The notes under the pieces: generated by a model
The model's database searches: none
Seen by the model: the letters and a program-made list of their open reading frames with translations, nothing else
Told to the model about the DNA's origin: nothing
NCBI RefSeq assembly: GCF_008087665.1
Contig: NZ_CP042912.1
Location: 4,712,001 to 4,776,000 of the forward strand
Length of the DNA: 64,000 nt
DNA from: Mariniblastus fucicola
Lineage (GTDB): Bacteria; Planctomycetota; Planctomycetia; Pirellulales; Pirellulaceae
Direction of reading: 5' to 3'
In this document: positions 2,787-56,135 of the stretch, piece after piece
Layout: each line of letters opens with the position of its first letter
Numbering within the stretch: the first letter of the stretch is position 1
Made by a program: the position numbers and the translations under genes

Positions 2787-2877
2787 GGAAATTGTCCTTG
2801 CGTCTTCGTGGAGGCACGGATAACCGGCAGCTACATCGCCGGCCAAAAAATGACGGCGAAGTCTGTTGGTAATCCAC

Positions 2878-2898
2878 GGCCCGGATTGTGTCCGAGCC
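2878..2898 (-). promoter_or_regulatory. Leader hairpin upstream of gcvT
   Basis: On the minus strand GGCTCGGA and TCCGGGCC form an 8-bp stem (one G-U pair) around a 5-base loop, about 90 bases before the gcvT start. A second short stem (CCGGC/GCCGG) lies between it and the gene. A glycine riboswitch is common before gcvT, but I could not find its conserved core here, so a riboswitch is not claimed. Confidence 0.3.
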
Positions 2899-3020
2899 AG
2901 GGCTGACTAAAAATGTAAAAGAACCAGTCTCAATTTTATTGTTTGATCCCGGCATTGGCAACGGTCTAAACGGCTTTGCTTCGCATTCCTGTCACGGATC
3001 GATTTCGTGAATGATCCGAT

Positions 3021-3917: not shown

Positions 3918-3935
3918 AAGGCGACATAGGCCTGG

Positions 3936-3958
3936 GTGGCATAGGCTTCCAGCCTGTG
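3936..3958. repeat. Short dispersed repeat (GTGGCATAGGCTTCCAGCCT type), copy 1
   Basis: A 23-base sequence immediately after the methyltransferase gene is repeated exactly at 13132-13154, just after recA. Its core AGGCT-TCC-AGCCT is a small palindrome, and it resembles the arms of the larger palindrome at 6095-6172. Confidence 0.7.
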
Positions 3959-37175: not shown

Positions 37176-39527
37176 TCACGCCTGACGGTCGCGATAGACG
37201 ATTTTTATGATTGCGGGCAGGAGCACCAGGTCGCCTAGCAACGCGGCCATCATGGTCACGATTGTCAATTCAGCGAATCGCTTCGTCGGCACAAAGCTGG
37301 AGTTCAACAGGATCAGCAACATACCGCAGACAATCAAAACGGTTGTCAGCACGATTGCCCGACCGCTACCGCGAGCCGTCCTTTTAATCGCGGTCATCAA
37401 CTGACCATCGAGAGAATACTCTCCGTGGAATCGCGCCAAAAAGTGAATGGTGTCATCGACTGCAATCCCCAAACCGATCGCAAACACCGTCACATTGGCC
37501 GCGTTCAAATCGTAGCCACGCAATCCCATATAGCCCAAAGTAAACAAGAGCGGAGTGACGTTTGGAAGAATCGAAATCAATCCAAACTTCACCGATCGGA
37601 AAAAACAGGCCAATACAACGAAAATTGCCAAGGACGCAATGACCAGGGAAACAAATAGCTCCGACACAAACCCGTCGAGCGCGTGCAAGTCATGGTAGCC
37701 TTCGCCAGTCAACCTGGTTCGCACTCCCACATCGGGCGGAAACTCTCTCGCCAACGCCGCTTCCAGTTCCGCCATCAGCTCACGGCCACGGCGCGACCCA
37801 AGATCGGTGAGGCTCAGCAGAATCCTTCCCGCGGACTCATCCCGCGTCAGATACAACTTCAAGTCCGAACTTCCACGCTTCTTCTGCAACCCGTAACGTA
37901 TCCGATCGAGTCGTTGAAGCGTGTTGGTATCATCCGCGACATCCGCTTCGGTAAAAAACGCTTTCTCTCCCGGCACAAATGCATCGGCTAACTCAAAGAT
38001 TGTTGCCCAGGAGGTTACATGCGAAATTTCTTCATGGCCTTCGAACTGTTCTGTAATTCTTCGAACCCGGTTGAACAAATCGGGAGTCGTCAGCAGCTCT
38101 GGGTTGTCGGTCTCAAGGATCACTTCGGCTTGAATGAAGCCTCCCAATTTTTCTTCAATCAACGACATTGATCGTACGGCGGGACTGTCTTTGTCGATCG
38201 TTTCCACCAAAAACGAATTCAGTTCGACACCACTAAAACCGGGAAATCCAACCGCTGCAGCGATGGCGACGCTGGCAGCCAGTAGCGAGACCACGACTGC
38301 GATCCATGGACGTTGTGCAGAAAAAACGCAGACTCTTTCCGCAAATCGATTTTCAATCGCGGCCCCTTCGTTCTGGTACATGGCAGGCGCCCGGAACCAG
38401 ATTCCCAAGGCTCCAAAGACAGCGATCAAGGCAACGTAAATCAACGCCAGCCCCATCGCCGATTGCCAACCAAACCCACGCAGGACATACGAACTGGTGA
38501 ACAGCAGGCTAAGGAAACCAAGCGCGGTTGTCAGCGTCGTCAACAAGCACGACGGAATCATATGCGCCATGGTGCGTTTGAGTGCGACGCCACGATCGTC
38601 GGACCGGGCATGTTCCTCGGCATAGCGGCTCAGGATGTGCACGCAATTTGAAACTCCAATCACCAACAGAATGATCGGCATCACATTCGTGATCACGTTG
38701 ATTGGTTCCTCGGCCCAGGCAAGGGCGCCGATTGTCCAGGCCAATCCGATTCCCAGAGCAACGCCGGGCAACGCAATCGCGGCTGAACATCGAAACAGAA
38801 AAATTAAAACGATGCCAAAGAAAACAGCCGCGATTGGAATCAGATACGTCAAATCGGTTTTCAACAAATCGATAATGCTGACTCGAACAAACGGCAGGCC
38901 GCTCAAGTGAGTCTCGAATCCGCTGGGGCAAGGATGTTCGCGCAAGATTGCTTCAATAATCTCGACAACTTCAGCAATTTCGTCGATCTTCTCGTCATCC
39001 TCATGCAAGAAAGCCGCGATGGCCGTAAGACGCATGTCCTCACTGATGACGCGCCCCTTGAACTGCTCGACTTCCGCGACGGTCTTCCTCAGCTTCGCCG
39101 CCGATTCGTCTGTGTGATTTCGAGTTTCGAACAGCCACTTGTATTGTTTGCCATCGAAAAAGGAAATCTTGTTCGGCAAACGAATGGTCGCCAGCCCTTT
39201 GGCTTTCAAGATCCGCGGTTCTTTCAGCAACGCCCTGGTAACGTCGTACTGCCAACTGAGCGCTTCGGGCAGAAAAACGTCGTCTTCGCCCGTGGCCGCC
39301 AGGGCGATCACGATAAATCGCGTTTCACCGCCAAAGGTATCGTCGGATCGAGCAGCAACCGAAGCTTCATCGCCCGCCAGCAGCATTTCCGGTGAGAAAT
39401 CGAAAGTGATCTTCGAGGCCCAGGGGATGGCGAACAGAAGCGTCAAAAAGAGTACGACAAGGACGAGGACTCGCCGCTGTACGATCACCCCCGCGATCCA
39501 TCGGGATAGTCCACCGTTCTCTTCCAT
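37176..39527 (-). CDS. RND/MMPL-family exporter
   Basis: A 783-residue transporter of the MMPL/HAE3 branch of the RND superfamily. It has a first helix (VLVLVVLFLTLLFAIPWA), a large periplasmic loop, then a cluster of helices with the sterol-sensing-like block (TYLIPIAAVFFGIVLIFLF, VMPIILLVIGVSNCVHIL). A second half repeats this: helix, loop, and LLFTLGYMGLRGYDLNAANV to FAIGLGIAVDDTIHFLARF. The GxxxDDxIH segment is the usual proton-relay-like region of the second half. These proteins export lipids, hopanoids or other hydrophobic molecules; no periplasmic adaptor or outer-membrane partner lies next to it. It converges on gltX with a 98-base gap. Confidence 0.9.
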   Translation of the reverse strand: MEENGGLSRWIAGVIVQRRVLVLVVLFLTLLFAIPWASKITFDFSPEMLLAGDEASVAARSDDTFGGETRFIVIALAATGEDDVFLPEALSWQYDVTRALLKEPRILKAKGLATIRLPNKISFFDGKQYKWLFETRNHTDESAAKLRKTVAEVEQFKGRVISEDMRLTAIAAFLHEDDEKIDEIAEVVEIIEAILREHPCPSGFETHLSGLPFVRVSIIDLLKTDLTYLIPIAAVFFGIVLIFLFRCSAAIALPGVALGIGLAWTIGALAWAEEPINVITNVMPIILLVIGVSNCVHILSRYAEEHARSDDRGVALKRTMAHMIPSCLLTTLTTALGFLSLLFTSSYVLRGFGWQSAMGLALIYVALIAVFGALGIWFRAPAMYQNEGAAIENRFAERVCVFSAQRPWIAVVVSLLAASVAIAAAVGFPGFSGVELNSFLVETIDKDSPAVRSMSLIEEKLGGFIQAEVILETDNPELLTTPDLFNRVRRITEQFEGHEEISHVTSWATIFELADAFVPGEKAFFTEADVADDTNTLQRLDRIRYGLQKKRGSSDLKLYLTRDESAGRILLSLTDLGSRRGRELMAELEAALAREFPPDVGVRTRLTGEGYHDLHALDGFVSELFVSLVIASLAIFVVLACFFRSVKFGLISILPNVTPLLFTLGYMGLRGYDLNAANVTVFAIGLGIAVDDTIHFLARFHGEYSLDGQLMTAIKRTARGSGRAIVLTTVLIVCGMLLILLNSSFVPTKRFAELTIVTMMAALLGDLVLLPAIIKIVYRDRQA

Positions 39528-39952: not shown

Positions 39953-41758
39953 GTGAAACAAGCTGCGCAAGCGAGGGAAGTAGATGTGCTTGTTGTCGGC
40001 GCGGGCGTGGCAGGATTGAGCGCAGCAACAGCTGCGGCCTGGTCGGGAAAATCGGTAGTTCTCATTGAGAAATCCGACACGATCGGAGGCACAGCCGCCA
40101 TCGCCAATGGAAGTATCTGGATTCCCAACAACGACCCTGCGATCGCCAACGGGTTCACATGCGATCTGGAAAGCCAGGTCCGTTTCATACTCAGCGAGTG
40201 CTGGGATGGCTTTGACGAAAGCCAAAAATGGTGTGGCGTCAGCAAGGAAACTTTCCTGCGAGTCGATCGCTACGTCAAGTCTGGCCTTCGTGTCGCCCGT
40301 GACCTGACGAATACTCGCGTGCAAACTTTCACGCAGTTGGACAAGATTTTCAAGCGGTACTTTTTTTCGACAAAAGACTCGGTCGATTCCGTTCGGCAGG
40401 CGCTCGGCCCAAATCATTCACGATCGGATGACGAACTGGCGAAAGCGGCTTGCTCTTCGTGGGACTACCATTGGGAAAACAAATTCAACAAGGTCCCTTA
40501 TGGCAAACATATTTGGGCAGCGTTCGATCTGCGACTGGCAGGCAAGTTTTTCTTTTCCGGTTTTAGAAAACACCTTTGGCACATCGTTCAAAACATGGTG
40601 TCGATTCGCAGCCTTTCCTCCCTGGCGGATCAAATCCCCAACCTTTTTACAAAGTTCTGGGGTTTCGGCAGTGGCCTGATTCTTGTCGAGCGATTTCGCA
40701 AACATCTGGATCGCCAAAAGGTTCCGATACTGAAACGTCACGAACTGGTGGCTGTTGCGACGAATGGAGATCGAGTCACATCTGTCGATGTGCAAACTGC
40801 GGATCGGCAAACATTGACTTGGAAAATTCGCGACGCGCTGATCATTGCCAGCGGCTGCTTCTCCCATCAGCTCACCGGCGACGGCGTTCAAGATTCCTAT
40901 TCGGTCAAATCATCTTGCGTTGCCCCGGGGAACGATGGAGACGCGATTCGGATTCTGAAAAACGCTGATGTTCAAGTCAATCAAAACCCGCGTCCGGTGC
41001 TGGCTCAGACAGTAATACAGCTGGCCAAGGAGAAGAACGCGATTTCTCATGAGCCCGTTTTCTACTTTTACGGCGATAGTTTCTTCCTGGTCGATCGCCA
41101 TGGACGCCGCGTGATGAACGAAAAGCTGACATACCACGATCGGGCACAGCACCATGTTGGCAATGCGGAACAGGAGTTTCTGTTTCTTGTTTGCGACCGC
41201 CGATTCAAAGAGCGATACTGGGGGCTCGGCATCGCAGTGCCGTTCGATCAAAAACACATGATTGTTGGCAACAACGAATCAACACTGCACGAAGAAATTG
41301 ATCGAGAGCTGAGAGACAACGATTGCGACTTTCGACTGGCAGACAATTTTTCAGCCAACTTGCGTGAAACAAAAATAGCGTTCAACGAATTTGCACGCAC
41401 CGGAGACGACCGCGAATTTGGCCGCGGGAAAAATGCTTTTGACGTTCTCGGATACATGAAACCGGATCGCGACCACGACGCTCCTTCCCGCAGCATGCAG
41501 CCGCTGGCAGGCGAAGAACTCTACGCCTGCATTTACGGACTCTCGACATTCGGGACTCATGGCGGGCTGGTTTGCGACGAAGACTCGCGCGTTCTGAATT
41601 CAGCTGGCGATCCATGGAACAACCTGTACGCGGTCGGGACTTGCGCCGCAAGTTTCCTCAACGGTCACTATCCGTCGCATGGCATGTCGATTGGCACAGG
41701 AATGGTTTTTGGTTACCTGGCCGGTTTGCATGCGACTTCGAACACGAAACGGCTGTAA
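39953..41758 (+). CDS. FAD-dependent dehydrogenase, 3-ketosteroid-delta1-dehydrogenase/fumarate-reductase-like
   Basis: A 601-residue flavoprotein starting at GTG with AAGGA upstream. The N-terminal dinucleotide motif is VLVVGAGVAGLSAATAA followed by VLIEKSDTIGGTAAIANG, as in FAD_binding_2 enzymes. The C-terminal YAVGTCAASFLNGHYPSHG and SIGTGMVFGYLAG are the second FAD-contact region seen in KstD-like proteins. Members insert or remove a double bond next to a carbonyl. The length fits KstD-type enzymes (500-600). It lies 132 bases before the giant PKS-NRPS on the same strand, so a tailoring role (oxidation or desaturation of the product) is a reasonable inference, though steroid-type substrates are not excluded. 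Confidence 0.85.
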   Translation: MKQAAQAREVDVLVVGAGVAGLSAATAAAWSGKSVVLIEKSDTIGGTAAIANGSIWIPNNDPAIANGFTCDLESQVRFILSECWDGFDESQKWCGVSKETFLRVDRYVKSGLRVARDLTNTRVQTFTQLDKIFKRYFFSTKDSVDSVRQALGPNHSRSDDELAKAACSSWDYHWENKFNKVPYGKHIWAAFDLRLAGKFFFSGFRKHLWHIVQNMVSIRSLSSLADQIPNLFTKFWGFGSGLILVERFRKHLDRQKVPILKRHELVAVATNGDRVTSVDVQTADRQTLTWKIRDALIIASGCFSHQLTGDGVQDSYSVKSSCVAPGNDGDAIRILKNADVQVNQNPRPVLAQTVIQLAKEKNAISHEPVFYFYGDSFFLVDRHGRRVMNEKLTYHDRAQHHVGNAEQEFLFLVCDRRFKERYWGLGIAVPFDQKHMIVGNNESTLHEEIDRELRDNDCDFRLADNFSANLRETKIAFNEFARTGDDREFGRGKNAFDVLGYMKPDRDHDAPSRSMQPLAGEELYACIYGLSTFGTHGGLVCDEDSRVLNSAGDPWNNLYAVGTCAASFLNGHYPSHGMSIGTGMVFGYLAGLHATSNTKRL

Positions 41759-41890: not shown

Positions 41891-44800
41891 GTGCGAAACA
41901 ACAACATGATACGCCAATCCCAAAACAGCAACTCTCTCAAACATCCTCCACTTGCCGTCGTTGGAATCGGCTGTCGATTCTCTGGCGGTGTGACCGACGC
42001 TGCGTCACTGTGGAAGCTTCTCGTCGAAGGGCGATCTGGAATCGTCGAGGTGCCAACCGATCGTTGGAATCGTGATCGTTTCTATCATCCAAATCGTGCG
42101 ATTCCGGGTCGCATGATCTCAAAATGGGGTGGCTTTCTGGATGGACTGGATCAATTTGATCCGCAATTTTGGGGCATTTCGCCGCGTGAAGCCGCTCGCA
42201 TGGATCCGCAGCATCGTTGGCTGTTGGAAGTTGCTTGGGAAGCGATCGAAGACGGTGGGATCGCTCCGCAAAAACTGCGTGGCGAATCGGTAGGTGTCTT
42301 CGTTGGCATCGCGGGCAACGACTACGCCGGAATCCAAATGCCTCACCACGCCGGCATCGACGTGCATACCAATAGTGGCAGCACGCAAAGCATTGCGTCA
42401 AACCGAATCTCATATTTGTTGGATTTGAAAGGACCAAGCGTTTCGGTCGATACGGCATGCTCCTCCGCACTCGTCGCGATGTCTCAGGCTTGTCATAGCA
42501 TTTGGAGCGGCCAATGCCGCGCTGCGCTTTCTGGTGGAGTCAACGCCATCATTACGCCGCACGCAACGATCGGATTCAGCAAAGCCCAAATGTTGTCACC
42601 GACGGGTCAGTGTTACGCGTTTGACGCGCGAGCCAACGGATACGTCCGCGGTGAAGGTGCAGCCATGGTTTTGATAAAGCCGCTCAGTGACGCGATTGCA
42701 AATGGCGATCCGGTCTACGGGGTCATTCGTTCTGCAGTCGTCAATCAAGACGGCCACACGAGTTCGATGACGGTTCCAGGAGTCGAAGGCCAGTCGGCGA
42801 TGCTGCGTCAAGCTTACCGCGATGCGGACATCGAACCGTCGCATGTGGCCTACATGGAAGCCCACGGTACGGGCACGCCAGTTGGCGATCCGATCGAAGC
42901 AACCGCTCTCGGAAATGTACTTTGCGAAGGGCGTTCAGAAGACAACAAGTGCCTGGTTGGCTCTGTAAAGACAAACATTGGGCACCTTGAGTCGGGGTCT
43001 GGAATCGCAGGTTTCCTCAAGTCGCTTTTGGTTCTTCATCACGACACGGTTCCTCCGAATCGAAATTTTGAGACGCCGAACCCCAACATTCCTTTCGAGC
43101 GTCTTGGGCTTGAGATCGCCAATGAACTCCAACCGTTGCCGCATTTCGAGGGCGTCTCGCCGATAACAGCCGTAAACTCATTCGGTTTCGGTGGCACCAA
43201 CGCCCATGTGGTCCTCGAAGCCGCGCCTGCTGCGGCACGCGACGTGAAATACAGTCCGACGCTTGTGCCCGGGCGGACCAATGGCATTGCCAAATCTTCC
43301 AACGGCAATGGCAACGGGGCAACGAATGGCTTTCATCGATCTGAAAAAGCCAATCGACCGTTGCTGCTTCCAATCTCTGCTCGCGACGACGCGTCGCTGA
43401 ACAGCTATATGCAGCTGATCAAAGAATCAATTTCTACAGACGACAACGACCAAAACCTCGCCGACTTTTGCTATTCTGCAGGCGCCCGCAAGGAACATCA
43501 CCAAAATCGCCTTGTTGTGCTCGGCCGTAGCGGTGACGAACTGCGATCGCGACTAACGCGACGGTTGACTGACGAAAACGCAACGGCAGGAATCGTCCAG
43601 GGTAAATCGACGACCAATGTTGGCGACATCACGTTCGTGTTCACAGGGCAGGGTGCCCAGTGGTGGCAGATGGGGCGCGAACTTTATGCGAACGAACCGG
43701 TTTTCAAAAACCTCATCGACCGCATTGATGCGCTGTTGGCTCCGCTGGCTTCCTGGTCGCTTGTCAACGAAATGATGAATGCGGAGTCCGAATCCAGTTC
43801 CCGTATTCACCTGACCAGCATTGCGCAACCCGCTATCTTTGCTCTTCAAGTCGCATTGGCTGAGCTGTGGAAATCGTGGGGCATTGAACCCGCCAAAGTC
43901 ATCGGTCACAGCGTCGGGGAAGTCGCAGCAGCCTACGTGGCCGGAGTCTATACGCTCGATGATGCTGTAAAAATCATTTTCCATCGCAGCCGATTGCAAG
44001 ATTCCGCTGGAGGCGACGGTCGAATGGCAGCGGTTGGAATTTCGGCTTCCGAAGCCAGCGAAATGATTGGCCAAAACACGGACAAATTACAAGTCGCCGT
44101 GATCAACAGCCCGAGCATGGTGACGATCGCTGGCGATCGAGAGCCACTTGAAGAGCTTGTCGACCAACTCAAAAAAGACGACAAATTCGTCCGCCTGCTG
44201 CGAATCAACTATGCGTTTCACACGCACCACATGGATCCGATTCGAGAAGAACTGCTGGACGCTTTGTCGGACATCAATCCGCTTCCGAGCCGCATTCCTT
44301 TTGTTTCCACCGTGACCAGTTGCGTCCTTCCGGGAGAAAAACTGGATGCCATGTATTGGTGGCGCAACGTTCGTCAGCCAGTGCTTTTTGCGTCGGCGAT
44401 GTCGAACCTGGTACGTGCCGGAGGTCGACTTTTCCTCGAACTTGGTCCGCATCCGGCTCTGGAAAGTTCAATCATGGATGTGATGAGCGAACAGGGAAAG
44501 CAGGGTTCCGCTTTTCACTCATTGAAACGAAAGACCAGTGAGTCCGAACAGATTTTGACCAATCTTGCGGGTCTGCACGTGCTGGGCATGCCGATCGATT
44601 GGGCAGCAGTCAACCAATCATCTGAACAGTTTGTTCGCCTGCCAAAGTATCCCTGGAATCACGCTTCTCACTGGTTCGAATCGGAGCAATCCGCGAGCGC
44701 GAGACTCGACGCGATCCCGCATCCACTTTTGGAAGAACGCGTCGTTGCGGAAAAACCGACGTGGCAATTCCAGTTGGATCCTCGACTGTTTGACTATCTG

Positions 44801-47800
44801 CACGACCATCAGATCTGGGACAGCATCGTTTTCCCCGGTGCCGGATACGGTGAGATTGGATTGGCAATCGCGGCTCAACTGTTTCCAGAACAACCGTATG
44901 TTGTCGAAGAACTGGAGATCAAAAAGGCTCTGTTCGTTTCCGAAGACAATGTTCCGACAGTCCGGGTCACCTTCAACACGGAAACGAAGACTTTCACCGT
45001 CCACAGCACGGTCGGCAAAGACGTTTGGGATTTGAATGGCCGTGGTCGGTTGATCGAAATGCCCGCTGAACAACCGAGTCCGATCGAAATCACAGCGATT
45101 CAGAACACGCTGACTGATCACATTGACCACGATTCCTACTATGCGGATTTCGCAGCCGCGGGATACCAGTTCGGTCCGAGGTTTCGACACGTCAATAATC
45201 TTTGGCGCGTTCCTGGCGAAGTCCTGGCTGAGATTGTCGTCCCGGAGCAGATCGAAGAAACAGTTGACCAGTATCGATTCCATCCTGCGGTTCTCGATGC
45301 GTGCTTCCACGTGTTCAAAGGCATGGCACCGGTAAGCGATTCCGGCGACGATTTCTTTTTGCCGGCTCACGTGCGCCGCATTCGCCTCTACAGCGAGCAG
45401 CCGAGTGGGCGACTTTGGGCGCACGCAAGAGTCGTCACTGTCGAAGAGCACACGATCTCTTCCGACATCTTGGTCTACGATGAGAATGGAAACCGCGTCG
45501 CGGACATACTTGGCTTCCGCGTCGACCGCATGAAGCAGGGTGGAAACGAAAGCGAGTTAGATGATTTGTACTTCCAGAACGCGTGGGAGAAAGCCAAACT
45601 GCGAGGCAGTCGCGTCGCTGGTTCCTGCGAGTTCGCCACGACGTCAGACATCGTTCAACGCACTGCCCAGCGTACCGGAGAAATTTACAGGAAACACGAT
45701 CTTGCAAATCACTACCACGGATTTGCGCCGCGAATCGAAGCCGTCGTTCACCAGCTTATTGAGAACGCTTACGTGCAGTTGGGCTGGAACCCAAACGCCG
45801 GCGACCAATTCACGCTGGAGCAACTCACCCGAGAGCTGAAGATTGTTCCGCAACATTATCGTCTGGTTGCTGCACAGCTTGGTTGGCTGGCTGAAGCCGG
45901 TTTGGTCCGAACTGTCGAAGATGGACGCTGGGAAGTTCTGCGCGTTCCAAGGTCCGCTGACGTCTCTGGCGAACTTGATGCGTTGGAAACGGAGTATCCG
46001 AAAGCTGCGACGGAAGTCGAATTGCAACGCACGACTGGCGACGGACTTGCTGGCGTGCTCTGCGGCGACGTCGACCCGGTCCACCTTCTGTTCCCCGGCG
46101 GATCGTCTGATTTGCTGGAATCGTTTTACGTACAAGCCTTCGACTTTCCTGCTTACACGGAGCTGATTCCGATGGCGGTGGAGCGAACAATTGAGACTTT
46201 GCCGAAACGTCGATCGCTGAGAGTTTTGGAAGTCGGAGCAGGAACGGGTTCGCTGACGAAAGCTGTGCTGCCCATTCTGCCTGCCGACCAAACAGAATAC
46301 TTGTTCACTGACATTGGACCGGCGTTTCTGTCCAAAGCGAAACAGCGTTTCTCGGCGTCGCCGTTTATCGAATACAGGACACTGGACATTGAACGTGATC
46401 CGTCCGAGCAGGAAATTGCCAACGGCAGCATCGATTTCATCCTTGCCACAAACGTTTTGCACGCGACCGCTGACCTCAAGAACACGTTGGCGAACCTGAA
46501 ATCGTGCCTTGCGCCTGGCGGGATTCTGATGTTCCAGGAAGTCGTCCGTCGACGAGCCGCCTGGGACAACATCTTTGGCTTGCTTGAGGGTTGGTGGCGA
46601 TATACGGACACCGATTTGCGTCCCCATTCGGCGTTGCTTCGACGAGAACAATGGACGTCGCTACTGAGCGAGTGTGGATTCGCCGACGCGGGGTGTTTTC
46701 ATTGCTCGCAGCAGGACGACGAAGCCGAGCAAGCTGTCTTTGTGGCGTTCGCTCCGCAGCCAGTTGAATCGGCGGACGCACCGCCGGAGGTAACCAAAGA
46801 AACGCGTTCGGATCAGGGTAGCTATCTGCTGTTCGCTGACGATTCCGGTTTGGCCAATGAGGTTGCCAGTCGATTGCGTCAACGTGGCTATCGACCGATT
46901 TTAGTAAACCAGGGTCAAGGCCTGTCAAATCCGGCTGATGACACGTTCACGATTTCAGCCACGTCGAAATCTGACATGGAGAGTTTGCTGGCCGAAACTA
47001 CTGCATTGTATCAGCCGATTCGCGGCATCGTTCACTGCTGGAGTCTCGATCATCCTTCGACCTTTGGCCTTTCGACAGAACTTCTGGAGAAAAGCCAAAA
47101 GACTGGAGTTCTCAGCATTCTGAAACTGGCTCAAGCCCTCGGAGAAGAATCCTTCGACGTTCCGCCTCGAGTCCTTGTCGTCACTCGTGGAGCACAGCAT
47201 GTCGTAGAAGGAGACTTCGTCGATGGCATCGCTTCGTCTCCATTGGTCGGAATCACCCGCGTCGCCAACAACGAGCATCCGCAATTCCGTTGGACATCGA
47301 TTGACCTCTCGAACGTTGCGTCGTCGCACGATGCGGAAGACGTCGTCGATGAGCTGTTCGGTAGCGACGGTGAACTTGAGTTGGCCTATCGTGATCAGCT
47401 TCGATACGGCAACCGACTGAAGGCGAGAAAAACCGAAGACATCGCCAAACGCTCGGTCAATGCAGTTCGGCGGGATGGCTCAACCATTCCCTATCGAGTC
47501 GAAACCGACAGACCCGGAATACTGACTAACCTTTCGCTCAACGAAACCATTCGACGCGCACCGGAAACAGGCGAAGTCGAAGTCCAGATCCGAGCCGGCG
47601 GCATCAACTTTCGTGACGTGATGAAGGCTTTGGCGATGTATCCTGGCAATCCAGTCGACCTTCTCTGGTTTGGCGACGATTTCTCAGGCACTGTTCTGCG
47701 AGTCGGTGAAGGAGTCACGGATTTACAGCCGGGCGATGAAGTCGCCGGTATGGCGCCGTATTCGTTTCGCGCTTACAACACGGTCGACCGAAGGATGGTA

Positions 47801-50800
47801 TTCAAAAAGCCAGCTCACCTGACGTTCGAACAGGCAGCAACGCTTTCAACTGTTTTCCTGACGACCAACTACGCGATCAACCATCTTGCACGCATGCAGC
47901 CTGGCGAAAAGATTTTGATTCACGCCGGAACGGGCGGAGTAGGGCAGGCCGCGATTCAGATTTCCCAGCATCTCGGATTGGAGATTTTTTCAACCGCGGG
48001 AACGCCGGAGAAGCGCCAGATGCTTGTCGATGCGGGCGTTCAACACGTGATGGATTCGCGAAGCCTGGACTTTGCTGACAAAATCATGGAAATCACGCAA
48101 GGCAAAGGCGTCGATGCGGTGCTGAACTCGCTCGCAGGTGAGTTCATCCCCAAGAACTTTTCTGTGCTCGCGCCATTCGGTCGTTTCCTGGAGATTGGAA
48201 AGATCGACATTTACAACAACACACGGATTGGACTGGAACCGCTGCGGAACAACATTTCCTACTTCGTGATTGATCTCGCTCAGCATTTGGAACACAAACC
48301 AGACTACGTCGCCACGATGTTCAGCGAACTGTCGGAACGATTCGACAGCGGCGACTATCAACCGCTTACCTTCAAGACGTTTCCGATCACTGAAATCGTC
48401 GAAGCATTTCGATTCATGGCTCAGGGGAAACACGTTGGCAAAAACGTCCTCACCTTCGATATCGATGAAATTCCAATCGGCCCGTGCAGCGAAGACAAAC
48501 TTTTACTTCGTGCCGACGCGACGTATCTGATTGTCGGTGGAGCCAGTGGTTTTGGACTGGAGCTTGCGAAATGGATGACCGAACACGGCGCACGAAATAT
48601 CGTTCTGCTCAGCCGAAGCGGTCCGCGTGACGATTCGGCAGCGGAAACGATACGCTCACTGCAACAAGCCGACTTCAACATCGTCGACGCAAGAGGTGAC
48701 GTCACGCAGCAGGCCGACGTCGATCGAGTCATCGCCCAGATCGAGGCTGACATGCCGCCGCTCAAGGGCGTCGTTCATGGCGCCATGGTGTTGGACGATG
48801 AGTTTATGGCTGGACTGAATGATGAGCGGTTCAGCAAAGTTCTGCATCCGAAGATTCTGGGAGCCTGGAACTTGCACACGGCAACCAAGGATCTGTCGCT
48901 GGAACACTTCATATGCTTTTCTTCGTTTTCGTCGCTCGTCGGCGGTGCGAAACAGTCAAACTACAACTCCGGGAATCACTTCCTTGACGCCCTCGCACAT
49001 CATCGGCGGTCGCTGGGCCAGCCGGCACTGACGATCAACTGGACCGCGTTGAGTGGAGCTGGCTTCGTCGAGCGAAATGAAAAAACGGCTCAGTATCTCG
49101 ACAAACTGGGGATGAAATCGCTGACGATGGACGAAGCGTTTGCAGTCTTTGTGCGCATGATTGCTCGTGATCCAGTTCAGATCGCGGCGTGCCGAGCGGA
49201 TTGGCAAGCGTTGTCCCGGCGGAGTCCTTTGGTCGCAAATTCCAGGACGTTCACGTCGCTGGTTGAATCCCAAAGCGGCGTTGATACGGGCGGGGCGATC
49301 AAACCGAAGCTGCTCGCTGCAGCACCGGCTCAGCGTTTTGAAATGCTGCAAGACCTTGTTGCAGAACAGGTTGGCGGCGTGTTCGGCGTCGATCCAAATC
49401 AAGTCGATCGAGAAACTTCGCTGACCAATCTTGGGCTCGACTCACTGATGGCGATTGATTTGATCAACCGCGTCGAAAGCGAATTGGGCGTCAGTGTACC
49501 GATGGGTAACGTCTTACGCGGGCCAAGTCTCAGCGAGTTAGCCGAAGTACTGATGGGGCTTATTGGCGATTCGACATCTGATGACTCGACTGTGTCTTCC
49601 GACAAACAATCGGCATCGACTTCGCTGGCGCCGCTTGCGAAGACGAGCAAGTTTGGCGATGCGTTCCCGTTGACAGAAGGCCAACAGGCGCTTTGGTTCC
49701 TGTATCGACTCGCGCCGCAAAGCTCCGCTTACAATTTGACTTTTAGTGCCAAACTAACGCCACACATTGACATCGCGTCAATGGAAAGAGCATTCGAGTT
49801 ATTGTTCAGGCGACACCCGATGCTGGACGTCACATTCTGCGATTCCGACGGACAACCACTCCAGCGGTACCGTCGCGACGGCAGCGTGGATTTTCGTGAG
49901 CACGACACGATGTCACTCAACGGTGAGGAATTGGACAACCTGTTGGTCGAGCACGCCAACCAGCCGTTCGATTTGGAAAACGGCCCTGTGATTCGGCTCG
50001 AGCTATTCCGCACCAACGACGGGCACATCGCTTTGATGACGATGCATCATATTATTTCCGATGCCTGGTCAGTCACCGTTTTGTTCAGAGATCTGATTGA
50101 ATCCTATTTTTCAATTCGTGCCGGAAGAGATCCACAGTTCGCTCCGATCGAAATCGGATATGAAGACTTTGTTGCGTGGGAGCAGGAACATTTGGCCAGC
50201 GATGCTGGTGAGCAGATGAAAAACTGGTGGAAGCAGCACATCGACGGCGCACCACTGAGCATCGATTTGCCAACCGACCATCCTCGTCCGGCAGTCCAGT
50301 CATTCCGCGGCGCGACTCTTGGATTCAAACTCGACGAAGAACTAACTCATCAGGTTTTGCAAACAGCAGCCCAGCAAAACGTCACGCTATTTACATTGAT
50401 GCTGTCCAGCTATGACATCCTATTGCACCGATACACCGGACAGGATGATTTCCTGGTCGGAAGCCCAATGGCGGGGCGGCAGCATCCTGAACTTCGGCAA
50501 TCCGTCGGCTATTTCGTGAACCCGGTGCCACTTCGCAGCCGCGTCGATGACGACCCGACTTTCACAAGCTATCTTCGCCGAACCAAAGAAACGGTCACCA
50601 GCGGACTCGAACACCAGCAGTATCCTTTCAAGCGAATGGTGCAGGAATCTGGAGGATCTCGCGACACCTCGCGGTCGCCACTTTTTCAGGTCGCATTTTC
50701 CATGGAACGCATCCCTGGTTTCGACGAACAGGGAATCGCAGTTTTCCTGATTGGGGAAGGCGGATACAAGTTCCATCTTGGCGACATGGAGATGGAGTCG

Positions 50801-53758
50801 ATCGATTTGCTGACTCGCCAGGCCCAATTCGAAATCATGTTGGTTGTTGAAGAAGCCGGAGGAAACATTTACGGCTGCTGGCAATATAACCGGGACCTGT
50901 TCGACGCAGAAACGATTGAGCGATTGAATGAAATGTATCACGATCTGCTGATGCAGCTGACGCGAAATCCAAACAAGCGAATCTCTCAGTACTCGATCGC
51001 AACCGAATCGGAGTTCCATCAAACGACCGAAGAATCGACAGACGATTTGCCGATCGAAGTTCGCGTTGAACAGTGGAACAAGACCGAGACCGCATTGGAT
51101 AATGATCGTCCGGTACACGAGCAGATCGAACAGCAGGCTTTGAAAACGCCAGACGCAATTGCCGTTGTTTGTGGTAGCGAATCGCTCACCTATCGGGAAC
51201 TCAACGAGAAAGCCAATCAACTTGCGTGGCACCTTAAGGAACTCGGAGTCGGGCCAGACGTTCGAGTCGGAATTTCGATCCAACGTGAAGTGCAACTGAT
51301 TGTCACAATCCAAGCGGTGTTGAAAGCCGGCGGTGCATATGTTCCGCTCGATCAAAGCTATCCTCAAAAACGCCTGCAACAGATCACCACCACGGCAGAA
51401 CTGTCCGTCGTTGTCACTGACCAGGCTCATCGTGAAAAATTCGCAGATACCTGTGAACATGTCGCCTGCTTTGATGCGGATGATTTGACTATCGCCAGAC
51501 AACGCAATGACAACCCACCGGTGACGGCGTCCGCAGAAAACTTGATGTACGTGATCTACACATCAGGTTCGACAGGCGATCCAAAAGGAGCAGGCGTTTA
51601 CCATCGCGGATTCACGAACCTGGTAGACTGGTTCCGTCGCGAGTTCGAAATCGACGCCAACGATCGTTCACTGGTTGTCACTTCCCATGGCTTCGATTTG
51701 ACGCAAAAGAATCTGTTCGCGACGCTCACAGTCGGCGGCCAGGTCCATCTGACGGATTGCCAGATCTTTGATCCTGGCATCATCCTGAACGAAGTCTCGC
51801 AAGCTGACATTTCACTGCTCAACTGCACACCCAGCAACCTCTATCTGTTGCTGAGCGATTCAGAAAAGACTCCTCAGTTGAATTCGTTGCGGATGGTTTT
51901 CCTTGGTGGAGAGCCAATTGACATGGCGAAACTTGCACCGTGGCGAAACCAATCTGGCTTTGCCACCACCATCGTTAACACATACGGGCCAACCGAATGT
52001 ACTGACATATGCTCTTTCTATCGCATTGCACCGGACAGCATCGAGAAATCGATCCCGGTCGGTTTTCCGATCTCGAATGTGCAAACCTGGGTTCTCGATG
52101 AGCAACTGCGGAAAGTTCCTGTCGGCGTGACCGGCGAACTTTGCATCGGTGGAGTGAGCGTCGGGGCAGGATATCTGCATGACTCGCAACTGACGTCGGA
52201 AAAGTTCGTTGCCAATCCGTTTGCATCGGATGATTGCGATCGAATCTACCGGACGGGCGACTTGTGTCGCTACCGCGAAAATGGAGCCATTGATTTCATC
52301 GGTCGCGTAGACGATCAAATCAAAATTCGAGGCAACCGAGTCGAACTTGGCGAAATCGAATCTGTTTTGCTAACGCATTCGCAGATCACTGACTGTGCCG
52401 TGATCGCCGTCGACGATGCTCGTGGCAACAAACGACTGGTCGCTTTTTTCGTTGCAAACTCCGTTCAACCAGGCAGCAACGGGCATCCGGTCGAAGCGTC
52501 AACTCCTCCATCGTCTGATGAACTGAAGCAGTTCCTTTTCGATCAACTGCCCTCGTACATGGTGCCGTCGCTGTTCAATTCTTTAGCACAAATGCCACTG
52601 ACTCCGCACGGCAAAGTCGACCGAAGAGCACTCGCATCGATCGGCAATCGGTTCCGGCGAGTTGACTATCTCGCGCCGCGAAATGAAACGGAAATCATGC
52701 TGTCCGGGCTTTGGGAAGCAGTTTTGGGAGAAGAACGAATCGGCGTCAAAGATGGCTTCTTTGATCTGGGCGGTGACTCGATGATGAGCATTGAGTTGGT
52801 GATCAAAATCCGTAAAGCGACCGGCATTGAAGTCCCGCTGGCGGTGCTGCTGCAGAACGACACGGTCGCCGGAATGGCCAACTACCTGAGCCAGAATCCA
52901 AACTCGGCCTGGTCTCCGATCGTTCCAATTCAAACTCACGGAGATCGGCCACCGCTGTTTTGCATTCACCCAGTCGGTGGCAACGTGCTGTGCTACGCTC
53001 CGCTGGCCGATGCGCTGGGTGACAACCAACCGGTCTACGGTCTGCAAGCCCGAGGCGTTGCAGGAACCGATGAGCCACTGGCTTCGATGGAGTTGATGGT
53101 TGAAGACTACCTGAGCGCGATTCGCGAAATCCAGCCGTCAGGCCCGTACCATTTTGCGGCCTGGTCATCAGGAGGAATTGTGGCTTACGAAATCGCCAGA
53201 CGGCTGATCGACAATGGCGAACAAGTCGCGACGGTTGCGTTGTTTGACTCTTTCGCACCGGCGTTGATGCGGATTGATGTTGACGATGATGCAATGATCC
53301 TGGCCGAATTGGTGAAGTTCCTCAATCGCTTTTACAACCTCAACATCGACGTGAGCTATGACTCCCTGGCTTCAGCCGGACCGGACGAACGGATCGCGAT
53401 GACACTGGCCAGCGCCAAGCAAACCGGTTTTGTTCCCGAAGACTTTGACGAAGCCTACATGCGTCGATTCCTGTCTGTTTGCAAAGCCAACCTTCGCGCG
53501 ATCAGCCAATATATCGAAGTCCAGCAGCCTGAAGTTCCAGCCGTTCTGTATCGAGCTTTGGATCCGAACGGGCGTAGCTATACGATTGATTCCGATTCAG
53601 CATCAGATCTTGGCTGGGGAAAATTGATTGGCCGCTCCATTGAGGTGATCGACATGAATGCGGATCACGTTTCCATAATTTCTGGCGAAGAAGTCGCGAA
53701 AGTTGCCAACGATCTTCGTGAAAGGATCGGTGTCCTTACCAAAACCAATCCAGCCTAG
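41891..53758 (+). CDS. Hybrid type I polyketide synthase / non-ribosomal peptide synthetase, 3955 residues
   Basis: One gene encodes a full assembly line. In order: ketosynthase (~19-450; C190 in DTACSSAL, H325 in EAHGTGTPVGDP, H365 in NIGHLESG); acyltransferase (~580-870; S674 in GHSVGEV, specificity motif YAFH); dehydratase (~940-1215; H973 in HDHQIWDSIVFPG, D1136 in HPAVLDACFH); C-methyltransferase (~1380-1600; VLEVGAGTGSLTKA); structural pseudo-KR (~1640-1850); enoylreductase (~1880-2185; IHAGTGGVGQAA); ketoreductase (~2210-2400; VGGASGFGLELA, S2345, Y2358); acyl carrier (S2518 in LGLDSLM); condensation domain (~2590-3030; HHIISDA, H2720); adenylation domain (~3080-3600; YTSGSTGDPKG, K3575); peptidyl carrier (S3630 in LGGDSMM); thioesterase (~3660-3955; S3759 in AAWSSGG, H3926). 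All reductive residues look intact. The inferred product is a C-methylated reduced acyl chain condensed with one amino acid and released by the thioesterase. ATG at 41906 is an alternative start. No phosphopantetheinyl transferase is nearby. Confidence 0.95.
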   Translation: MRNNNMIRQSQNSNSLKHPPLAVVGIGCRFSGGVTDAASLWKLLVEGRSGIVEVPTDRWNRDRFYHPNRAIPGRMISKWGGFLDGLDQFDPQFWGISPREAARMDPQHRWLLEVAWEAIEDGGIAPQKLRGESVGVFVGIAGNDYAGIQMPHHAGIDVHTNSGSTQSIASNRISYLLDLKGPSVSVDTACSSALVAMSQACHSIWSGQCRAALSGGVNAIITPHATIGFSKAQMLSPTGQCYAFDARANGYVRGEGAAMVLIKPLSDAIANGDPVYGVIRSAVVNQDGHTSSMTVPGVEGQSAMLRQAYRDADIEPSHVAYMEAHGTGTPVGDPIEATALGNVLCEGRSEDNKCLVGSVKTNIGHLESGSGIAGFLKSLLVLHHDTVPPNRNFETPNPNIPFERLGLEIANELQPLPHFEGVSPITAVNSFGFGGTNAHVVLEAAPAAARDVKYSPTLVPGRTNGIAKSSNGNGNGATNGFHRSEKANRPLLLPISARDDASLNSYMQLIKESISTDDNDQNLADFCYSAGARKEHHQNRLVVLGRSGDELRSRLTRRLTDENATAGIVQGKSTTNVGDITFVFTGQGAQWWQMGRELYANEPVFKNLIDRIDALLAPLASWSLVNEMMNAESESSSRIHLTSIAQPAIFALQVALAELWKSWGIEPAKVIGHSVGEVAAAYVAGVYTLDDAVKIIFHRSRLQDSAGGDGRMAAVGISASEASEMIGQNTDKLQVAVINSPSMVTIAGDREPLEELVDQLKKDDKFVRLLRINYAFHTHHMDPIREELLDALSDINPLPSRIPFVSTVTSCVLPGEKLDAMYWWRNVRQPVLFASAMSNLVRAGGRLFLELGPHPALESSIMDVMSEQGKQGSAFHSLKRKTSESEQILTNLAGLHVLGMPIDWAAVNQSSEQFVRLPKYPWNHASHWFESEQSASARLDAIPHPLLEERVVAEKPTWQFQLDPRLFDYLHDHQIWDSIVFPGAGYGEIGLAIAAQLFPEQPYVVEELEIKKALFVSEDNVPTVRVTFNTETKTFTVHSTVGKDVWDLNGRGRLIEMPAEQPSPIEITAIQNTLTDHIDHDSYYADFAAAGYQFGPRFRHVNNLWRVPGEVLAEIVVPEQIEETVDQYRFHPAVLDACFHVFKGMAPVSDSGDDFFLPAHVRRIRLYSEQPSGRLWAHARVVTVEEHTISSDILVYDENGNRVADILGFRVDRMKQGGNESELDDLYFQNAWEKAKLRGSRVAGSCEFATTSDIVQRTAQRTGEIYRKHDLANHYHGFAPRIEAVVHQLIENAYVQLGWNPNAGDQFTLEQLTRELKIVPQHYRLVAAQLGWLAEAGLVRTVEDGRWEVLRVPRSADVSGELDALETEYPKAATEVELQRTTGDGLAGVLCGDVDPVHLLFPGGSSDLLESFYVQAFDFPAYTELIPMAVERTIETLPKRRSLRVLEVGAGTGSLTKAVLPILPADQTEYLFTDIGPAFLSKAKQRFSASPFIEYRTLDIERDPSEQEIANGSIDFILATNVLHATADLKNTLANLKSCLAPGGILMFQEVVRRRAAWDNIFGLLEGWWRYTDTDLRPHSALLRREQWTSLLSECGFADAGCFHCSQQDDEAEQAVFVAFAPQPVESADAPPEVTKETRSDQGSYLLFADDSGLANEVASRLRQRGYRPILVNQGQGLSNPADDTFTISATSKSDMESLLAETTALYQPIRGIVHCWSLDHPSTFGLSTELLEKSQKTGVLSILKLAQALGEESFDVPPRVLVVTRGAQHVVEGDFVDGIASSPLVGITRVANNEHPQFRWTSIDLSNVASSHDAEDVVDELFGSDGELELAYRDQLRYGNRLKARKTEDIAKRSVNAVRRDGSTIPYRVETDRPGILTNLSLNETIRRAPETGEVEVQIRAGGINFRDVMKALAMYPGNPVDLLWFGDDFSGTVLRVGEGVTDLQPGDEVAGMAPYSFRAYNTVDRRMVFKKPAHLTFEQAATLSTVFLTTNYAINHLARMQPGEKILIHAGTGGVGQAAIQISQHLGLEIFSTAGTPEKRQMLVDAGVQHVMDSRSLDFADKIMEITQGKGVDAVLNSLAGEFIPKNFSVLAPFGRFLEIGKIDIYNNTRIGLEPLRNNISYFVIDLAQHLEHKPDYVATMFSELSERFDSGDYQPLTFKTFPITEIVEAFRFMAQGKHVGKNVLTFDIDEIPIGPCSEDKLLLRADATYLIVGGASGFGLELAKWMTEHGARNIVLLSRSGPRDDSAAETIRSLQQADFNIVDARGDVTQQADVDRVIAQIEADMPPLKGVVHGAMVLDDEFMAGLNDERFSKVLHPKILGAWNLHTATKDLSLEHFICFSSFSSLVGGAKQSNYNSGNHFLDALAHHRRSLGQPALTINWTALSGAGFVERNEKTAQYLDKLGMKSLTMDEAFAVFVRMIARDPVQIAACRADWQALSRRSPLVANSRTFTSLVESQSGVDTGGAIKPKLLAAAPAQRFEMLQDLVAEQVGGVFGVDPNQVDRETSLTNLGLDSLMAIDLINRVESELGVSVPMGNVLRGPSLSELAEVLMGLIGDSTSDDSTVSSDKQSASTSLAPLAKTSKFGDAFPLTEGQQALWFLYRLAPQSSAYNLTFSAKLTPHIDIASMERAFELLFRRHPMLDVTFCDSDGQPLQRYRRDGSVDFREHDTMSLNGEELDNLLVEHANQPFDLENGPVIRLELFRTNDGHIALMTMHHIISDAWSVTVLFRDLIESYFSIRAGRDPQFAPIEIGYEDFVAWEQEHLASDAGEQMKNWWKQHIDGAPLSIDLPTDHPRPAVQSFRGATLGFKLDEELTHQVLQTAAQQNVTLFTLMLSSYDILLHRYTGQDDFLVGSPMAGRQHPELRQSVGYFVNPVPLRSRVDDDPTFTSYLRRTKETVTSGLEHQQYPFKRMVQESGGSRDTSRSPLFQVAFSMERIPGFDEQGIAVFLIGEGGYKFHLGDMEMESIDLLTRQAQFEIMLVVEEAGGNIYGCWQYNRDLFDAETIERLNEMYHDLLMQLTRNPNKRISQYSIATESEFHQTTEESTDDLPIEVRVEQWNKTETALDNDRPVHEQIEQQALKTPDAIAVVCGSESLTYRELNEKANQLAWHLKELGVGPDVRVGISIQREVQLIVTIQAVLKAGGAYVPLDQSYPQKRLQQITTTAELSVVVTDQAHREKFADTCEHVACFDADDLTIARQRNDNPPVTASAENLMYVIYTSGSTGDPKGAGVYHRGFTNLVDWFRREFEIDANDRSLVVTSHGFDLTQKNLFATLTVGGQVHLTDCQIFDPGIILNEVSQADISLLNCTPSNLYLLLSDSEKTPQLNSLRMVFLGGEPIDMAKLAPWRNQSGFATTIVNTYGPTECTDICSFYRIAPDSIEKSIPVGFPISNVQTWVLDEQLRKVPVGVTGELCIGGVSVGAGYLHDSQLTSEKFVANPFASDDCDRIYRTGDLCRYRENGAIDFIGRVDDQIKIRGNRVELGEIESVLLTHSQITDCAVIAVDDARGNKRLVAFFVANSVQPGSNGHPVEASTPPSSDELKQFLFDQLPSYMVPSLFNSLAQMPLTPHGKVDRRALASIGNRFRRVDYLAPRNETEIMLSGLWEAVLGEERIGVKDGFFDLGGDSMMSIELVIKIRKATGIEVPLAVLLQNDTVAGMANYLSQNPNSAWSPIVPIQTHGDRPPLFCIHPVGGNVLCYAPLADALGDNQPVYGLQARGVAGTDEPLASMELMVEDYLSAIREIQPSGPYHFAAWSSGGIVAYEIARRLIDNGEQVATVALFDSFAPALMRIDVDDDAMILAELVKFLNRFYNLNIDVSYDSLASAGPDERIAMTLASAKQTGFVPEDFDEAYMRRFLSVCKANLRAISQYIEVQQPEVPAVLYRALDPNGRSYTIDSDSASDLGWGKLIGRSIEVIDMNADHVSIISGEEVAKVANDLRERIGVLTKTNPA

Positions 53759-54332: not shown

Positions 54333-54455
54333 GTTCAAGAAGAATGTCGTTGGCGAGGCTGGTAACTTACTTTGAGCCACGAACCAATCTCGCCGAAAAA
54401 GACTCCTTTCGGTATAACACCAGCTTCCATCAAGTCTCAAAACGACCCGAAATCA

Positions 54456-56135
54456 ATGTCTGAAACCCCCAAAGAAGAAAAGCTCGACTTCGTACGCCAA
54501 ATCGTTGCTGACGATATCGCCAACGGAAAAAACGAAGGACAAGTCCAGACGCGGTTTCCTCCTGAGCCCAATGGCTATTTGCATATCGGACATGCGAAGT
54601 CGATCTGTTTGAATTTCGGCATCGCGAAACAGTTTGGCGGCAAATGCAATCTTCGCTTTGACGACACCAACCCGGAAAAGGAAGACACGGAGTTCGTTGA
54701 AGCCATCGAAGAAGATGTCCGCTGGCTGGGTTTCGAATGGGACAAAAAACTGTTCGCCTCCGACTATTTCGACCAACTCTACGATTGGGCGGTGCAGTTG
54801 ATCAAGGAAGGCAAAGCCTATGTCTGCGATTTGACTTTCGAAGAAGTCCGCGAATACCGCGCGGGCTGGAACAAGGAAGGTAAGGACAGTCCGTATCGCG
54901 ATCGCACGCCGGAAGAGAACCTCGATCTGTTCGAGCGAATGAAGAACGGCGAGTTCAAGGACGGAGAAAAATCGCTCCGCGCGAAAATCGACAACAGCTC
55001 GCCCAACATGAACCTCCGCGATCCAGCCATGTATCGCATCCGACACGCTCACCATCATCGCACGGGCGACAAATGGTGCATCTACCCGACTTACGACTAC
55101 ACGCACGGCCAAAGTGATTCGCTCGAAGGCATCACGCATTCGTTGTGCACACTCGAGTTTGAAAACCATCGTCCGCTTTACGACTGGTACATCGAAGCGT
55201 TAGGCATCCATCATCCTCAGCAGATCGAATTCGCGCGGCTGAACCTTTCCCACACCGTGATGAGCAAACGAAAACTGCTGGAACTGGTTCAGAGCGGCCT
55301 CGTTTCCGGTTGGGACGATCCGCGAATGCCTACCATCGTCGGAATGCGTCGCCGCGGATTTACGCCGGAAGCACTGCGTAACTTTTGCGACCGAATCGGT
55401 ATCACGAAGTTCAACGGGCTGACCGAGTTGCCGATGTTGGAATTGTGTATCCGCGATCATTTGAACCGAACGGCGAATCGGGCAATGGTGGTGCTGGATC
55501 CGCTTAAAGTCGTGATCACGAACTACCCCGAAGGTAAATCGGAGATGCGTCAGGCGATCAACAATCCGGAAGACGAATCAGCCGGGACTCGCGAAATGCC
55601 GTTTGGCCGTGAGCTGTTTATCGAACGCAAGGACTTCATGGAGGAAGCTTCGAAGAAGTACTTTGGCTTGACGGTCGGCAAAGAGGTCCGGTTCAAGAAC
55701 GCGTTCTTTGTAAAGTGCAACGACGCGATCAAGGACGACGACGGCAACATCGTGGAACTTCACTGCACCTACGATCCTGAAACTTCTGGCGGCAAGGCTC
55801 CGGACGGCCGGAAGGTCAAAGGCACGCTGCATTGGGTGAGTGCGGAGCATGCAATCGATGCCGAAGTGAGGCTTTACGATGTGCTGTTCACGCAGGAGAA
55901 ACCGGAGAACGTCGAAGAGGGTGAGGACTGGAAAGACAACCTGAACCCTGAGTCACTGAAGGTGCTGACCGGTTGCAAATTGGAGCCGTCCCTCGCGGAA
56001 GCCAAAGTCGGCGATCGGTTCCAGTTCGAGCGAATGGGTTACTTTTGCATGGACAAAGATTCCCAGCCAGGCAAACCGGTATTCAATCGCACGGTGACGC
56101 TAAAAGACGGTTTTGCGAAAAAGAAGAAAAAGTAG
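54456..56135 (+). CDS. glnS: Glutaminyl-tRNA synthetase
   Basis: A class I synthetase charging tRNA-Gln directly. The start [20 protein letters not shown] fits the family and gives 559 residues; a TTG at 54372 would add 28 unrelated residues. Conserved parts are [18 protein letters not shown] (HIGH motif), [27 protein letters not shown] (tRNA-acceptor region), [15 protein letters not shown] (KMSKS motif), [10 protein letters not shown], and the C-terminal beta-barrel anticodon domain ending [11 protein letters not shown]. Having both GlnRS and GluRS implies direct glutaminylation in this organism. Confidence 0.97.

Follow-up and report, generated by a model that had tools for sequence, protein, structure and literature searches.

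Gene and domain anatomy

The window, i.e. the whole stretch of 64,000 nucleotides analysed here, encodes a PKS-NRPS of 3955 amino acids (aa) in one uninterrupted ORF with a GTG start at 41891-53758 (+). Its domains follow each other in a single chain in the order KS-AT-DH-cMT-psiKR-ER-KR-ACP-C-A-PCP-TE, as the preliminary description had it and as the ORF, Pfam and homology confirm; Pfam likewise confirmed the single KS. The psiKR has no Pfam match of its own and was identified by its homology to the corresponding region of relatives and of mycocerosic acid synthase (MAS). The features of the locus are listed below, L049 being the closest relative.

37176-39527, strand opposite to the PKS-NRPS: MMPL transporter, upstream (Pfam)
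39953..41758, +: FAD_binding_2 oxidoreductase, 601 aa, 133 bp upstream of the PKS-NRPS (Pfam; 74% identical counterpart in L049)
41891..53758, +: single-chain PKS-NRPS, 3955 aa (ORF; Pfam; homology to relatives)
41942..43225, +: KS domain, aa 18-445 (Pfam; trees)
43613..44605, +: AT domain, aa ~575-905, GHSVGE and YAFH (Pfam; motifs)
44702..45580, +: DH domain, aa ~938-1230 (Pfam; motifs)
45659..46750, +: C-methyltransferase including its N-terminal helical part, aa ~1257-1620 (Pfam; CurJ alignment)
46808..47485, +: structural (pseudo) KR half, aa ~1640-1865 (homology)
47486..48466, +: ER domain, aa ~1866-2192 (Pfam; homology)
48488..49090, +: KR domain, aa ~2200-2400 (Pfam; motifs)
49298..49570, +: ACP, aa ~2470-2560 (Pfam; motifs)
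49643..51025, +: condensation domain, aa ~2585-3045, HHIISD, co-inherited with the PKS part (Pfam; identity per domain; C tree)
50948..51023, +: C-A junction, aa 3020-3045 (identity drop against five Verrucomicrobial relatives)
51104..52645, +: adenylation domain, aa ~3072-3585, code DLKNFGTDIK (Pfam; code; AU test)
52673..52906, +: PCP, aa ~3595-3672 (Pfam; motifs)
52928..53734, +: type I thioesterase, aa ~3680-3948 (Pfam; motifs; genome PF00975 search)
54372-56135: glutaminyl-tRNA synthetase, downstream of the PKS-NRPS

Pfam places the ketoacyl synthase at aa 20-394, the acyl transferase at 581-899, the dehydratase at 944-1217, the helical lead and methyltransferase at 1257-1600, the ER at 1893-2187, the KR at 2210-2388 and the ACP at 2484-2555; in the NRPS half, Condensation spans 2591-3041, AMP-binding with its C-terminal part 3080-3575, the PCP 3606-3666 and Thioesterase 3687-3942. 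Two stretches match PP-binding (ACP and PCP). E-values among the families listed (25 of 30) range from 1.7e-8 to 6.9e-107, far beyond chance. Only 17 residues precede the KS and 7 follow the TE, which leaves little space for docking domains.

The expected motifs are intact in the catalytic domains, in line with the preliminary description, which had found the active-site residues it checked to be present. The KS carries DTACSS, EAHGTGT and NIGH, and the AT carries GHSVGE. In the DH, the H-x8-P motif reads HQIWDSIVFP, with Asp at the usual Gly position, and is accompanied by HPAVLD. The cMT has EVGAGTG, NVLHAT and a Glu that aligns with a CurJ Glu; CurJ is also its nearest solved chain (249 bits, against 97 bits for the LovB cMT). 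GTGGVG is present in the ER, GGASG and YNSGN in the KR, GLDSL in the ACP, HHIISD (HHIISDA) in the C domain, TSGSTG in the A domain and GGDSM in the PCP, and the TE has AWSSGG followed downstream by an Asp (LFDSF) and a His (ADHVS).

The genome, a single contig of 6.57 Mb, contains 8 matches to the KS model. Two of these lie in PKS-size ORFs, and the same two loci account for the 2 matches to the C model. The second PKS-NRPS locus, about 2.2 Mb from the window gene, is the only other one found; it encodes A-PCP-KS-AT and C-A proteins (L038, G000:C1:2554940-2565482), and a phosphopantetheinyl transferase is encoded alongside in an ORF of 237 aa. Searches of the genome with the KS and C models thus found no further PKS or NRPS module near the window gene. 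The TE is the sole PF00975 match in the genome. The LuxR-type autoinducer domain PF03472 was not found there (an E. coli control was positive); the LuxI fold PF00765 gave 0 matches in a genome search run without a positive control, and is absent from the listed Pfam matches of the chain.

The FAD_binding_2 oxidoreductase is probably a partner gene of the PKS-NRPS. Its 74% identical counterpart in L049 lies 778 bp upstream of the PKS-NRPS there, and no counterpart was found at E 1e-10 in the ORFs of the other loci L031-L128. MMPL-type transporter genes lie close to the megasynthase in the planctomycete loci L032, L080 and L088 as well as in the window. The MMPL transporter was considered as a fixed partner, which was not upheld, as none lies within about 10 kb in L049.

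A bacterial family of monomodular enzymes

The enzyme belongs to a family of monomodular highly reducing PKSs in Verrucomicrobiota and Planctomycetes, as judged by its KS clade and by similarity along the entire PKS part; the planctomycete host proposed in the preliminary description was borne out. L049 comes from Pirellulaceae bacterium SJ586, and its enzyme shares 78% of 3938 aligned residues with that of the window; relatives across the whole PKS part are 45-78% identical in their best segments. With the PKS part as query, 27 genomes of the same genus yielded nothing close among the matches listed, where long matches were 31-35% identical and shorter KS-AT or KS pieces at most 44%.

To survey the family, GTDB species genomes were scanned with an alignment of four members, which confirmed 106 stretches, 80 of them kept as loci; with L031-L033 the total is 83, L031 and L083 being on the same contig. 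Locus classes were assigned from domain hits with a KS cut-off of 540 bits. The layout KS-AT-DH-cMT-psiKR-ER-KR-ACP-C-A-PCP followed by a domain of ~415 aa, all within a single ORF of roughly 4000 aa, was found in 30 loci (28 plain, 2 with a split A hit), and L105 and L060 have the same domains spread over two or three ORFs. Among the incomplete loci, 15 are cut by a contig end and 20 have no KS above 540 bits. The remaining 16 comprise ACP-C-R (L031, L083, L032, L080, L085, L088) and ACP-R endings (L033, L059, L067, L097), five single cases (ACP-TE in L062, nothing past the ACP in L095, C only in L099, an interrupted ORF in L098, KS only in L112) and L049, which ends in C-A-PCP-TE. The R ends tested (L032, L033, L067) match NAD_binding_4. 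Two of the reductase-ending versions, L097 and L059, come from the cultured Rhodopirellula rubra CECT 8075 and Aporhodopirellula aestuarii. In L031, L032, L080 and L088 the C domain lies between ACP and reductase, with no A or PCP, and HHxxxD is not intact at its place, which recalls the orphan C-like domain of LovB.

Apart from the window enzyme and L049, all complete C-A-PCP members found end in the ~415-aa domain. It had no Pfam match above cut-offs in four members tested. Three members were compared with PigE and matched it weakly (E 3e-7 to 3e-13), and the one compared with solved chains strongly matched 9e4s (256 bits), named 'amino acid adenylation domain protein'. We infer that it is a reductase of the PigE kind; the literature searched held nothing on the solved terminal domain 9e4s/9e4x. 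The same Pfam-less end occurs at L050:20819-22093 and in 31 further family loci, in L039 and L103, and in H12 on a Streptomyces fungicidicus plasmid; it resembles part of PigE and PDB 9e4s/9e4x. As a terminal release domain of PKS-NRPSs it may be overlooked by annotation pipelines.

Several genes recur beside the megasynthase. Malate dehydrogenase is encoded about 250 bp upstream of it at 22 loci, and 21 loci have a 4-alpha-glucanotransferase gene on the same side at about 1.3 kb (one example of each was Pfam-typed; the 16 loci heading each list are all Verrucomicrobial, e.g. L056, L058, L065, L092), which suggests a settled chromosomal place and vertical inheritance. One gene family lies just downstream in L050, L061, L066, L077, L105 and L115, and also in L126, where Pfam identifies the gene product as a sulfotransferase; sulfation of some products is thus possible.

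The phylogeny was built from 155 extracted KS rows, 95 of which entered a first tree and 80 a second; excluded were many Verrucomicrobial rows, fragments, several actinomycete modular KSs, L038, the trans-AT chain 7zma, L128, L110, L113 and FabF. The first tree, with long rows kept and a faulty FabF outgroup that had one row filling 17% of the columns, gave the fork between the family and the PTM/fungal group at 86/0 only. In the second, rooted on actinomycete modular KSs (a 10-row clade, 100/100), the window KS pairs with L049 (100/100) within a planctomycete set of 13 rows (96/96), itself part of a family clade of 26 rows (100/99) that is mostly Verrucomicrobiota and Planctomycetes with one Rhizobiaceae row (L067). 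LovB, PsoA, L093, L143 and the PTM-layout L139 and L140 form a six-row group (99/97). This group and the family, together with L034, L126, L142 and two rows from Gemmataceae, make up a 37-row group (96/83), and the KSQ loading domains branch off one fork further out. The family is separate from the actinomycete modular KSs, and an AU test rejected a single clade of the family, the fungal/PTM group and the actinomycete modular KSs (p 0.000465). When the window KS was searched against 10 actinomycete genomes (two of them partly scored), PTM-layout enzymes ranked 1st and 5th of 471 matches; the ranks between were L141 and L142, of other layouts, and L146, a contig-end fragment.

The preliminary description called the architecture fungal-type, and the domain order is indeed alike. 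The fungal PsoA, TenS and LovB have the order KS-AT-DH-cMT-psiKR-(ER)-KR-ACP-C-A-PCP in one chain, and the window enzyme shares with these fungal synthases its cMT, psiKR and C-A-PCP in one chain as well as the 37-row KS group. The term is nevertheless too strong, for the DH-cMT-ER-KR run also occurs in the bacterial PKSs L142 and L048. The enzyme moreover differs from the fungal ones in belonging to a bacterial gene family, in ending in a PF00975 thioesterase rather than an R or Dieckmann domain, and in its separate KS clade. Could it nonetheless be a fungal PKS-NRPS gained by horizontal transfer, with a TE replacing the reductase? The domain order, shared with fungal hybrid synthases, and the presence of the solved fungal PsoA and LovB among the matched chains would fit. 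Against this stand the bacterial relatives over the whole PKS part, the cMT closest to CurJ, the score of the window KS against LovB and PsoA (319 bits, lower than many bacterial KSs) and the AU test, in which the family and the only two fungal KSs compared (LovB, PsoA) were rejected as a sole clade (p 0.00215). Given relatives, scores and AU test, we reject a fungal origin as extremely improbable: by these comparisons the layout is fungal-like, but the gene is that of a bacterial family member. Among solved chains, MAS matches the enzyme as a whole best, and its KS lies apart in the tree; MAS and its kin are bacterial single-module reducing PKSs with neither a cMT nor an NRPS part.

A break at the C-A junction

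The identity of the window protein to six relatives (five Verrucomicrobial and L049) was profiled in 60-residue windows along the chain. Against the five Verrucomicrobial relatives it stays at 42-78% across the C domain (centres 2590-3010), drops at the junction, aa 3020-3045, from 50-58% (centre 3010) to 18-27% (centre 3040), and fluctuates at 7-50% beyond it. Against L049 there is a dip to 58-65% at the C-A linker, followed by recovery. Per domain, identity to six Verrucomicrobial relatives is 66-75% for KS, 59-77% for ER, 42-61% for C, 34-39% for A and 25-37% for PCP, compared with 35-41% for five A domains and 36-42% for four PCPs of unrelated planctomycete enzymes.

The trees agree with the profile. 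The window C domain has its place inside a Verrucomicrobial group (9 rows, 96/97); the C domain of the family member L061 groups with other NRPS C domains and not with its family kin. For the A domains, an AU test that was chosen in view of the identity profile rejected the family as one clade (13 vs 17 of 30 rows, p 0.0064); three long rows had been dropped before the test, and L054, L089 and fragments were left out. By sequence comparison, then, the C domain stays in the family while A-PCP-TE breaks away: the window enzyme and L049 follow the family up to residue ~3020, and what lies beyond looks foreign. No donor of A-PCP-TE emerged from a search of 80 related genomes, where matches reached only 30-42%. 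Judging from the common state of the family, the exchange would have started from a member ending in A-PCP-reductase and put a foreign A-PCP-TE in place of that end at the C-A linker, with a new amino acid and a new release chemistry as the outcome.

The A-domain codes point the same way on the amino acid. With pocket columns placed by the GrsA positions, the window enzyme and L049 read DLKNFGTDIK, and the other family A domains DI[LM]Q[FL]G[LM][VI]WK in all 33 read, which we take to be a glycine code. By the same method, the PTM-layout L139 reads DVGEIGSIDK, presumably ornithine. The code DLKNFGSDVK, equal to that of the window at 8 of 10 positions, was assigned to homoserine by antiSMASH 4.1.0 and given no prediction in version 5.1, according to an excerpt of PMC7524897. 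The exact code DLKNFGTDIK turned up nothing in the literature searched; its closeness to the homoserine code suggests that substrate.

Proposed product, alternatives and significance

Taken together, the enzyme is best explained, with reasonable though not high confidence, as a stand-alone monomodular highly reducing PKS-NRPS of the Verrucomicrobiota/Planctomycetes family that works iteratively and has had its A-PCP-TE exchanged. The AT would load units, probably malonyl, and the single KS would extend the chain several times, while KR, DH and ER would reduce it and the cMT would add alpha-methyl branches, giving a branched, largely saturated acyl group. The C domain would join this acyl chain to one amino acid, activated by the A domain and held on the PCP, and the TE would release an N-acyl amino acid, possibly as a five-membered lactone if the residue is homoserine; it could also simply hydrolyse. 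The product is thus likely a methylated, reduced N-acyl amino acid, perhaps an acyl-homoserine (lactone). Iterative use of the KS, raised in the preliminary description, is likely, since the KS branches apart from the modular KSs of actinomycetes and close to those of fungal and PTM-layout enzymes, and no other module was found nearby.

The enzyme could also act in one step, taking a fatty acyl starter through one or few extensions before adding the amino acid to make a lipoamino acid or surfactant. Its single KS is consistent with this, as are the MMPL-type genes near the window gene and the three planctomycete loci; the lipid-making PKSs of mycobacteria have MMPL transporter genes close by. 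We consider it unlikely, as neither the chain nor the ten neighbours tested contain an acyl-AMP ligase or loading domain, and L049 lacks a nearby MMPL gene. Less likely still is a PTM-like tetramate maker, in which the TE would close a tetramic acid in a Dieckmann-like manner and the flavin enzyme would form carbocycles. PTM synthases of the HSAF and ikarugamycin type are, like the window enzyme, single-chain iterative PKS-NRPSs with one KS and a terminal TE, and their KS group adjoins that of the family; a flavin gene lies upstream of the window gene too. The reference enzymes here are the Streptomyces L139 and L140 (KS-AT-DH-KR-ACP-C-A-PCP-TE in one ORF), whose PTM identity is read from this layout and, for L139, from two adjacent flavin Amino_oxidase genes. 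The window enzyme differs from them by its additional cMT and ER, which would give a saturated branched chain and not the polyene that PTMs need. Its KS lies in the separate 26-row clade and not with the two PTM-layout KSs, its C and A domains group apart from those of L139 and L140, its A code differs from theirs, including the putative ornithine code of L139, and its flavin enzyme is FAD_binding_2, not of the Amino_oxidase type.

The terminal TE had been singled out as unusual. It is odd within its own family, where the PigE-like end prevails outside L049, but bacterial PTM synthases also end in a TE, according to part of a 2023 mSystems paper (PMC10308959). The same excerpts describe a 'monomodular clade' of 379 KSs, with no characterised members, from Verrucomicrobia, Planctomycetes, Proteobacteria and Bacteroidetes, and read it as PTM-like (KS-AT-DH-KR-ACP-C-A-PCP-TE) and iterative, which lends the tetramate reading some support. 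Both sets are single-module PKS(-NRPS) genes from the same phyla, and the window family is likely the same clade, although it differs from the clade as described in those excerpts by its cMT, its ER and a mostly PigE-like end. A monomodular KS clade in these phyla was thus already known; what is new are the 30 of 83 loci that share the one-ORF layout but have the PigE-like end and glycine-like A codes. The cMT/ER-containing layout, the PigE-like end and the A-PCP-TE exchange in these enzymes were not found in the titles and abstracts of the literature searched (mostly non-subscription).

Returning to the exchange reading, its boldest form is that a natural exchange of domains at the C-A linker turned an acyl-glycine-aldehyde PKS-NRPS into a maker of methyl-branched polyketide acyl-homoserine lactones, AHL-like compounds made without LuxI in a host in which no LuxR-type receptor was found. 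We consider this unlikely as a whole, and the likeness to LuxI-type N-acyl-homoserine lactone synthases would lie only in the possible product, as the window protein does not have their PF00765 fold. If the homoserine reading is true, however, the enzyme would represent a LuxI-independent route to acyl-homoserine (lactone) compounds. Single-module, fully reducing and methylating PKS-NRPSs are iterative enzymes known from fungi; the family adds some thirty complete bacterial members of one layout on which programming rules may be tested. The window enzyme and L049 point to the C-A linker as a place where evolution may cut such chains, and they indicate that replacement of A, PCP and release domain may be tolerated, which could guide their engineering.
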